From a virus: a stretch of 34,280 nt of DNA. Position numbers and translations under genes: made by a program. The first letter of the stretch is position 1, and each line of letters opens with the position of its first letter. The stretch covers positions 1-34,280 of the IMG/VR virus record IMGVR_UViG_3300020160_001075. One strand, written 5' to 3'. Below, piece after piece: positions 3,500 to 31,079 of this stretch. The notes beneath the pieces are model-generated. The model was given only the letters and a program-made list of their open reading frames with translations. It did not search any database and was not told where the DNA came from.

Positions 3500-4249
3500 T
3501 TATTTTTTATTAATTTGTCTGAAAGCCATAAGTGAGTTGAATTTATCATCAGCACTATCTCCAGATATTTTATTAAATTCCGTTTTACCATCAGCAATTT
3601 TCTTGCCAGCTGGTTCAGATTTGAAAGCACTAAACTCATTGTTCATAGCTTCCATTTTAGTTTCCATTTGAGACATTTTTTCACCACATTGGTAGATAAA
3701 ATCTCTTAACATCTTCATCAATTCTACTTGAATTGGGTCACCTGCATCAACACTATCTTCAGGCATTGAGTCTGATTCACCATCCATCATACCTTCAGGT
3801 GATTTTACAGAAACAATCATACCACCATTAGTTTCAATTTCAGTACCGTCTTCTAACATATGTACTCCATCAGGTGCGGCTATACCGTCTGGCATTTCTT
3901 CAGTTACTACTTTAACAGCAGCACCTTCAGCCAAACTATCACCCTCAACCTTAACAACAGTACCATCTTTCAATTTTGCTTCTACGAATATTTCTTTAAC
4001 AGCAGTAATTTCACCGTTGGAAACTTCAATCTCAAAATTCTCTTTTAATTTATATGAACCATCCTCTAAAGCTACCGCTTCAAACGCTTCATTGATTTTA
4101 CTAACTGATTTACCAACTTCCAATTTCTCGGTGTTGATAATAGTATCATCTTCTAATTTAAAAGACAATGGAGTTGCTTCTTCCGTCATGAAACCGAACT
4201 GAACCATTAATTTCTTAATTTCGTTGATAGCGGTTTTTGGATTAGACAT
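3500..4249 (-). CDS. Capsid scaffolding protein
   Basis: 249 residues, very acidic, between the protease side and the capsid gene where scaffolds usually lie. The first 150 residues hold several short beta-hairpin-like modules built on the pattern L-DGT-I/V-V (EDDTIINTEKL, LEDGSYKL, LKDGTVVKVEG, LEDGTEIET). Residues about 170-215 form a helix or coiled coil rich in Met, Glu and Lys, and the C-terminus is basic (FRQINKK), as expected for the part that binds capsid protein. No protease motif is seen in it. The DGT-hairpin repeats are also seen in scaffold-like genes of other Bacteroidetes phages. Function by context and composition. Confidence 0.7.
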   Translation of the reverse strand: MSNPKTAINEIKKLMVQFGFMTEEATPLSFKLEDDTIINTEKLEVGKSVSKINEAFEAVALEDGSYKLKENFEIEVSNGEITAVKEIFVEAKLKDGTVVKVEGDSLAEGAAVKVVTEEMPDGIAAPDGVHMLEDGTEIETNGGMIVSVKSPEGMMDGESDSMPEDSVDAGDPIQVELMKMLRDFIYQCGEKMSQMETKMEAMNNEFSAFKSEPAGKKIADGKTEFNKISGDSADDKFNSLMAFRQINKK

Positions 4250-4342: not shown

Positions 4343-4375
4343 TGTGGATAAGTATGTGTATAAGTATGTGGATAA
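4343..4375 (+). repeat. Three tandem 12-bp repeats, each a consensus DnaA box
   Basis: TGTGGATAA at 4343-4351, TGTGTATAA at 4355-4363 and TGTGGATAA at 4367-4375 lie at exact 12-bp spacing, joined by GTA. Each is the reverse complement of TTATnCACA, the consensus DnaA box. The array ends five bases before the -33 element of a plus-strand promoter. A matching pair of repeats precedes another plus-strand promoter at 30972-30992. They could be DnaA-bound operators, operators for a phage regulator, or iterons of an origin. Confidence 0.75.
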
Positions 4376-4380
4376 GTTTT

Positions 4381-4412
4381 TTTGGTAGTTTCAGAAATAT
4401 GGTTTAATTTTG
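4381..4412 (+). promoter_or_regulatory. Bacteroidetes-type promoter for the orphan plus-strand gene
   Basis: TTTG at 4381-4384, 20-bp spacer, TAATTTTG at 4405-4412, an exact match to the Bacteroidetes vegetative promoter form (TTTG, 19-21 bp, TAnnTTTG). Transcription would begin near 4418, giving a leader of about 45 bases before the ATG at 4464. It reads against the head-gene transcript on the other strand. Confidence 0.7.
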
Positions 4413-4463
4413 TATTTCAAAATTAAAAACGGGGACAGGTTAAAATCTGAACATAATATAGTT

Positions 4464-4682: not shown

Positions 4683-4690
4683 AACAAAAA

Positions 4691-4718
4691 ACCCCTCGTA
4701 ATTGAGGGGTTTTATTTT
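4691..4718. terminator. Bidirectional intrinsic terminator
   Basis: Stem ACCCCTC (4691-4697) and GAGGGGT (4704-4710), loop of six, flanked by TTTTATTTT on the right and, read on the other strand, by TTTTTTGTTTT. It ends the orphan plus-strand gene and also the minus-strand transcript from the protease gene, whose stop codon (4717-4719) lies at its edge. Confidence 0.85.
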
Positions 4719-27809: not shown

Positions 27810-28294
27810 ATTCTTAATTGTTTTAATTTACCATTACCATCATAAGTAAATCTAATAGTAAATCCAGCTAACAATCTATACTTTAAAGAAATGAAGCAGG
27901 TATATATTTCTTCTCTATCGTTGAATTTAATCTCATAAGAAACATATTGACCACCTTGCCATTCTACTTGATTATTTGATAGTATTTCAGATATTTGTTC
28001 TCTATATACATTATCAACAATAAATTGACTTTTCACCTTCGGTGGTTGAGTATTGTTTAATTCAATTAATTGTTCTTGCACATATTCTTCAAATTTACCT
28101 TGTGCAGCAAAAATTTGTAAAACTAATTTCTCAAGTTCTTTATGTTGATTAAGTAACCTGCTGTGTGCGGTCTTCATCATTTTTAAATCTTCTTCAACTG
28201 TAGCCATAATTTTAATATTTGTTTTATAATAATTTTTACAACCTTTTAACCAATTATCTAAATATTGATTAAATACAATATCATTAGTTTCCAT
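27800..28294 (-). CDS. Coiled-coil protein, function unknown
   Basis: 164 residues from the ATG at 28294, which overlaps the winged-helix gene by 11 bases; an ATG at 28207 (MATVEEDLKMMKTAHSR) is an alternative start preceded by an AT-rich leader. Residues about 30-75 form a coiled coil (ARL/HKELEKLVLQ type), followed by an alpha/beta part with REEIYTCFISLKYRLLAG. No family recognised. Its position next to a putative replication or regulatory winged-helix protein may indicate a joint role. Confidence 0.6.
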   Translation of the reverse strand: METNDIVFNQYLDNWLKGCKNYYKTNIKIMATVEEDLKMMKTAHSRLLNQHKELEKLVLQIFAAQGKFEEYVQEQLIELNNTQPPKVKSQFIVDNVYREQISEILSNNQVEWQGGQYVSYEIKFNDREEIYTCFISLKYRLLAGFTIRFTYDGNGKLKQLRILE

Positions 28295-28751
28295 TTTCTT
28301 TTTGTTTTTGATATTGATATAAAGATGTTCCTCCAGTAATATGTAATGTTTTATCTAATGATTGATTTAATGAATCTAATATAATAGTGCCAACTTCACT
28401 TGAAGGGGGGTTTAAACTTGACCGACTATCTCCTTTAACTTCACCGACTACCTCATTTAACTTGACCGACTCCTTTTCCTTAAATGTAGGTATAATTTTT
28501 CTAAATGTTTTATTATTAAATGTATAAGAACTTGTCTCAATGTAACCTAAACCCTTTAATTTAGTTATTCTTTCGGATGCTGCGGTTCTACTAATATTAA
28601 ATAATTTACCCAAATAAGAATTAGAGATAAGACAACCATTCTTTGCTTTATCTAATGATTGTATTAATGCCAATAATAGTTTATCACCATCTTTTAAATC
28701 TTTTATATTCAATAATGAATATGAAACCATTAAGAATTGTTCTTTCTCCAT
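28284..28751 (-). CDS. Winged-helix DNA-binding protein (HTH_36-like)
   Basis: 155 residues. Residues about 17-75 (LKDGDKLLLALIQSLDKAKN, CLISNSYLGKLFNISRTAAS, ERITKLKGLGYIETS) are a winged helix like those at the N-terminus of phage replication-organiser or regulatory proteins. The rest is Ser/Asn-rich and unlike the helicase-loader part, so a regulator or an initiator with a divergent C-terminus are both possible. It is the first gene of the leftward transcript and lies opposite the first plus-strand gene across a 145-base regulatory gap. Confidence 0.65.
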   Translation of the reverse strand: MEKEQFLMVSYSLLNIKDLKDGDKLLLALIQSLDKAKNGCLISNSYLGKLFNISRTAASERITKLKGLGYIETSSYTFNNKTFRKIIPTFKEKESVKLNEVVGEVKGDSRSSLNPPSSEVGTIILDSLNQSLDKTLHITGGTSLYQYQKQKENGN

Positions 28752-28822: not shown

Positions 28823-28878
28823 TGTGGAAAAAGATTTATCAAAAGATTTTGTAATATCGGTGAAGTTTCATATATTTA
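28823..28878 (+). promoter_or_regulatory. Promoter region for rightward early genes, with a DnaA-box-like site
   Basis: TTTG at 28848-28851, 19 bp, TATATTTA at 28871-28878 (one mismatch to TAnnTTTG). A TGTGGAAAA at 28823-28831 differs by one base from the TGTGGATAA repeats upstream of two other plus-strand promoters, and lies 16 bases before the -33 element (15 bases in the 31008 promoter). Transcription would start near 28885, about 12 bases before the first ATG. Confidence 0.45.
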
Positions 28879-30971: not shown

Positions 30972-30992
30972 TGTGGATAAGTATGTGGATAA
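30972..30992 (+). repeat. Two tandem DnaA-box repeats upstream of the cassette promoter
   Basis: TGTGGATAA at 30972-30980 and 30984-30992, joined by GTA, with a 12-bp period, the same unit as at 4343-4375. They end 15 bases before the -33 element, ten bases (one helical turn) further away than in the 4381 promoter. Confidence 0.75.
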
Positions 30993-31007: not shown

Positions 31008-31039
31008 TTTGGTGGGTAAGTTAGGATATACTAATTTTG
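31008..31039 (+). promoter_or_regulatory. Bacteroidetes-type promoter of the 31-32.7 kb cassette
   Basis: TTTG at 31008-31011, 20 bp, TAATTTTG at 31032-31039, an exact match to the consensus and identical in both elements and spacer length to the 4381-4412 promoter. The leader to the ATG at 31080 would be about 35 bases. Confidence 0.7.
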
Positions 31040-31079
31040 TGTCTTAATAACATCAGGTAGATGTTTAAAACAAAAAGTT

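Follow-up and report, generated by a model that had tools for sequence, protein, structure and literature searches.

A phased upstream activator site on the promoters of Bacteroidota phages is well supported by the sequence comparisons described here. The site is the 9-mer TGTGGATAA, whose exact complement is the DnaA box TTATCCACA. It is probable that these phage promoters are activated by a protein bound to TGTGGATAA, most likely the host DnaA, and that they drive units of the moron type. These data suggest that small accessory genes of many Bacteroidota viruses may be switched on via DnaA.

Box arrays and promoters in the window

The DNA analysed here (the window, 34,280 nt) is a virus record of 34.3 kb with terminase, portal, and tail genes. 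Among named terminases, the closest comes from Flavobacterium phage 11b (42%), and no relatives of the window DNA or of two cassette genes were found among the named phages searched. Rfam and tRNA searches of the window gave no match either.

Exact matching in the window revealed five TGTGNATAA boxes, four of them TGTGGATAA and one TGTGTATAA; expressed as DnaA boxes (the 9-mer TTATCCACA or a close variant), these are four exact copies and one TTATACACA. All five fall within two arrays with a period of 12 bp, each located ahead of a promoter (Table 1). Both promoters match exactly that of σABfr, the primary sigma factor of Bacteroidota, whose consensus consists of TAnnTTTG at -7 and TTTG near -33, with around 20 bp between them (PMC7366714). 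The original prediction of five boxes in two 12-bp arrays, followed at 5 and 15 bp by TTTG-N20-TAATTTTG, was borne out at the same coordinates. With 5 copies in the window versus 3.7 expected, the TGTGNATAA box shows no enrichment by itself, and for this reason box counts were dropped and the arrangement was used instead. The box-to-promoter pattern yielded three matches at two promoters, versus none in 100 shuffles.

A third site had been proposed at 28823. A box does lie there, 16 bp before a promoter, but the site is weak, as its -7 element has one mismatch and the box TGTGGAAAA, retained in a 93% relative, is lost (TGTGAAAAA) in an 81% relative. Divergent from this promoter is encoded an HTH_36 protein (28284-28751) similar to phage replication-initiation proteins.

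Table 1. Coordinates of the features at the two box loci and at the weak third site of the window.
Feature	Position	Strand	Description
Triple DnaA-type box array	4343..4375 (boxes 4343-4351, 4355-4363, 4367-4375)	+	Exact matches, 12-bp period
Locus-1 σABfr promoter	4381..4412	+	TTTG 4381-4384, N20, TAATTTTG 4405-4412; gap 5 bp from last box
Inverted repeat over the -7 element	4403..4427	+	TTTAATTTTG-tattt-CAAAATTAAA; possible operator
Locus-1 leader	4428..4463	+	Shared element CGGGGACAGG...AATCTGAACA; same element in leaders of unrelated genes
Cassette gene, 72 aa	4464..4682	+	ORF; relatives in L095 and L096; no Pfam or PHROGs match
Intrinsic terminator ending the cassette	4688..4713	+	11-bp stem and T run
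Weak third site	28823..28878	+	TGTGGAAAA 28823-28831, gap 16, TTTG 28848-28851, N19, TATATTTA 28871-28878; -7 element with one mismatch
Double DnaA-type box array	30972..30992 (boxes 30972-30980, 30984-30992)	+	Exact matches, 12-bp period
Locus-2 σABfr promoter	31008..31039	+	TTTG 31008-31011, N20, TAATTTTG 31032-31039; gap 15 bp from last box
Locus-2 leader hairpin	31050..31064	+	ACATC-AGGTA-GATGT; common to unrelated genes in L012, L156, L175
First gene after promoter 2, 71 aa	31080..31295	+	ORF; no Pfam or PHROGs match

Recurrence and helical phasing among viruses

In the IMG/VR viral collection, the tandem-box pattern was found in 18 contigs and its reversed control in none, while the box-promoter pattern was present in 75 contigs, many of them unrelated, in records of up to 245 kb. 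The gaps between box and promoter are bimodal, with 32 at 5-7 bp, 32 at 14-16 bp, and only two between, and 54 of the 66 related sites have a promoter spacer of 20. Since this first pattern was restricted to gaps of about 4-17 bp and required [C/G]TTT after the box, a second scan was carried out with the gap free from 1 to 31 bp. Among the matches listed, 60 distinct sites (pairs at least ~76% alike being collapsed) peak at 5-7, 14-16, and 25-27 bp, with a period of 10-10.5 bp (Rayleigh p ~6e-10). The same three peaks appear when all the loci gathered are considered (97 distinct sites). Reversed boxes occur five times at the same promoters, which had been gathered with the forward box, and none of them is phased.

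This arrangement, with whole-turn distances from the core promoter and a set orientation, corresponds to the geometry of class I/II upstream activators. The proposal that the 5- and 15-bp gaps differ by one helical turn, as would fit a bound protein touching RNA polymerase, is therefore strongly supported, and it extends to gaps of 5-7, 14-16, and 25-27 bp in unrelated phages. In-phase boxes favour an A before the 9-mer and CTT or ATT after it, and boxes with one mismatch gave no clear phase signal. The module has also been found in a microvirus (ssDNA) from flamingo faeces; the gap there is 6, and another, degenerate box lies 12 bp farther upstream. This occurrence indicates that the module is independent of the replication mode.

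Bacterial chromosomes offer a different picture. The pattern has only four matches, a background level, in 395 Bacteroidota genomes, none of them of typical form (the reversed box gives one), no triple box arrays were found in the five Bacteroidota genomes searched for them, and matches in the genome collection outside Bacteroidota show flat gaps. On the basis of this background and these flat gaps, the architecture belongs to phages and not to host promoters, and the background level in the 395 genomes led to the rejection of a host-promoter usage. As a separate observation, several Pedobacter chromosomes (L235, L241, L251, L285) have a conserved TGTGGATAACTTT element located 23 bp upstream of a TTTGG-N19-TAGTTTTG promoter, a distance that does not match the phase of the phage sites.

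A short-DNA search of named phages retrieved two Bacteroides phages with the core promoter and no box, along with T5-like and Lactococcus phages with boxes and no σABfr promoter. In phage BF23 (L430) and Lactococcus phage AM1 (L431), unrelated phages of Proteobacteria and Firmicutes, respectively, TGTGGATAA is repeated in tandem with a 12-bp period and no Bacteroidota promoter. No report of such promoters was found in the literature searched, which covers few subscription journals.

Locus 1 as a mobile one-gene cassette

A phage moron is a cassette in which a single small gene, equipped with a promoter and a terminator of its own, sits between phage genes in some relatives and is missing from others. 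Locus 1 shows this organization, with a lone rightward gene within a leftward structural block, boxes and promoter before it, and a strong terminator after it (two terminator-like sites were found versus 0.1 in shuffles). In relatives with a 96% identical neighbouring protein (L097-L099), the flanking genes adjoin, and the entire unit of boxes, promoter, leader, gene, and terminator is absent. Other relatives hold boxes and promoter with a different gene at this position. A box cassette with many non-homologous genes was found here in 21 distinct relatives and none in 36 of 57, counts that include loci found through the motif and whose ratio is not a frequency. The unit is thus present or absent between relatives at one and the same site, and locus 1 has the features of a mobile, recombining one-gene cassette of the moron type rather than of an origin. 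This nature of locus 1 as a mobile one-gene cassette had been missed in the original prediction. Another record (L152) holds a divergent pair of box-bearing promoters (684-729 and 613-669), one of which drives a homolog of the gene at window positions 3500-4249.

The -7 element of locus 1 is overlapped by an inverted repeat that resembles either a hairpin or the operator of a repressor. Similar repeats were found at 13 of 38 promoters with a gap of 5-7 bp, versus none of 150 promoters without a box. In the window and in five other records (L128, L137, L168, L182, L347), the repeat has a 5-nt loop and is centred just 3' of the -7 element, and its arms vary in step with the nn of TAnnTTTG.

Leaders and downstream genes

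Leaders such as CGGGGACAGG...AATCTGAACA and ACATCAGGTAGATGTTTAAAACAAAAAGTT are common to unrelated genes and have been swapped between loci. Three types can be distinguished, CGGGGACAGG..AATCTGAAC, a ACATCAGGTAGATGT hairpin, and a GAGGGATATTCCTC hairpin (window 4428-4463 and 31050-31079; L007, L012, L084, L128, L137), and they could be recombination or translation-control elements.

The genes downstream of in-phase sites belong to 62 protein families, one of which recurs in three phages that differ in their gap (5, 16, and 26). Most encode small uncharacterised proteins; SprT-like, homing-endonuclease, and single-strand-binding proteins account for a few. Box promoters also precede a very small hydrophobic ORF (e.g., MSHTLSILPYFIVAAVVIYKFN) in five records (L160, L163, L193, L194, L197), a possible family of small membrane proteins.

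As for locus 2, the expectation that relatives would keep the repeats beside the promoter held only in part: the array is retained in L007, L018, and L084, but it is lost in L083 (a 93% relative), where gene and promoter are retained without boxes.

Identity of the bound protein and alternative explanations

The occurrence of one site in phages with little else in common indicates a host factor. Of the binders originally put forward, we infer the host DnaA from the exact box, the breadth of the phages, and the conserved residues of DnaA domain IV; a phage's own protein is unlikely because the identical site occurs in very different phages, including the ssDNA microvirus. DnaA tolerates some one-mismatch boxes, and we take R399, R407, Q408, H434, and T435 to be, by number and role, the base-contacting residues of domain IV in the E. 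coli protein. When a Flavobacterium DnaA is aligned to the structure of this domain (1J1V), the first four are kept and T435 is replaced by alanine. A tight intergenic cluster of TGTGGATAA is also present in one Bacteroidota chromosome. The points that weigh against DnaA are the T435 replacement, the one-mismatch boxes without clear use, and the L083 locus-2 promoter and gene without boxes; a further point against the proposed explanation is that chromosomal promoters in the 395 Bacteroidota genomes make no use of the box arrangement.

A different activator, either widespread among hosts or present in many phages, might read the DnaA-box sequence with DnaA uninvolved. The lack of clear use of one-mismatch boxes speaks for such a protein, as do the preferred bases on both sides of the 9-mer, which imply a footprint longer than nine bases, and the window encodes DNA-binding proteins of its own, including the HTH_36 protein. 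We nevertheless consider this explanation rather unlikely, since siphoviruses, a microvirus, and contigs as long as 245 kb all have the exact DnaA box, a breadth that suggests a protein universal among hosts. DnaA could also bind and repress, keeping the cassettes silent, or be soaked up by the boxes to restrain host replication. In E. coli it has mostly been described as a repressor (PMC6015884), and arrays can bind several molecules; however, boxes upstream of -33, in one orientation and at whole-turn distances, have the geometry of an activator site, and neither titration nor occlusion would need a phase, so that repression or titration is improbable.

The arrays could instead be a replication origin, which the original prediction had offered as the alternative, or serve some other step of DNA handling, as the injection stop signal of T5 does, with the promoters being incidental. 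DnaA boxes are listed within that signal (PMC13250531), and similar tandem TGTGGATAA arrays exist in T5-like and Lactococcus phages without such a promoter. The boxes of the window, in contrast, are phased to the promoter. Nor is an origin supported, because close relatives lack the locus-1 cassette and no such site exists anywhere in five of the eight relatives of at least 31.9 kb, records whose completeness is uncertain; the site is therefore not kept in the phage lineage, as it would be if it served as an origin. Overall, a DNA-handling role has very little probability. It is even harder to believe that the spacing merely reflects multiple copies of a handful of related sequences. Kinship is evident among some of the cassettes, and the T-rich spacers resemble one another, but similar sites were collapsed before counting, the downstream genes fall into dozens of families, one of them behind all three phases, and the controls are empty or unphased, which leaves this explanation a negligible chance.

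Proposed mechanism and implications

Under activation by a box-bound host protein, array and promoter would together form a phage promoter read by the host RNA polymerase with the primary sigma factor of Bacteroidota. The protein on TGTGGATAA would sit on a fixed helix face upstream of -33, in one of three positions spaced by single turns, and host DnaA, the most likely candidate, would act as an upstream activator in contact with RNA polymerase, with extra boxes at 11-12 bp aiding its cooperative loading. The promoter would drive self-contained accessory units that move between phages, made up of boxes, promoter, leader, and gene, plus a terminator in the window cassette. By relying on a protein that every host possesses, such a unit could function in whatever phage genome it occupied and would track the replication state of the host. 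We infer both that DnaA activates rather than represses and any role in timing.

In its broadest form, the proposal is that Bacteroidota phages with dsDNA and ssDNA share a portable promoter module with host DnaA as the activator, through which exchangeable accessory genes would follow the replication-initiation state of the host in any phage genome entered; the chances for and against it seem evenly balanced. If true, the protein that starts chromosome replication would also be a common activator of accessory genes across Bacteroidota viruses, and the module would provide a clean, phased promoter system for the contact between DnaA and RNA polymerase in a phylum with poorly known activators. 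It would likewise explain the continued expression of one-gene cassettes after their transfer between unrelated phages, and it would supply a sequence signature for finding accessory genes in uncharacterised phage sequences.

Comparison with known systems

In class I/II activator promoters of the CRP type, the activator binds ahead of the core promoter, at sites separated by single helical turns. The phage module shares with them a site placed upstream of the core promoter at one-turn steps, but its 9-mer is a DnaA box that always faces the same way, and its core promoter is a Bacteroidota one. Locus 1 resembles phage morons in having a small gene with its own promoter and terminator among phage genes, variable between relatives. 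Unlike them, it bears DnaA-type boxes and leaders common to unrelated genes. Bacterial oriC clusters hold the same clustered 9-mer, whereas the boxes of the window all point in the same direction, are phased to the promoter, and form a site that the phage lineage can do without.

The terminal repeat of T5-like phages also contains tandem TGTGGATAA with a 12-bp period, although no σABfr promoter follows the boxes, which have been discussed within the injection stop signal (PMC13250531). In phage lambda, DnaA stimulates transcription through RNA polymerase from boxes near the promoter (PMC3985674). The lambda origin (pR, pO region) is thus similar to the proposal made here, since in both cases the host DnaA would act on phage transcription from boxes close to a promoter, by touching RNA polymerase. 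However, lambda uses sigma-70 promoters with boxes that have been described downstream of pO, while in the phages described here exact boxes lie upstream of σABfr promoters, at whole-turn distances, and precede exchangeable accessory genes.
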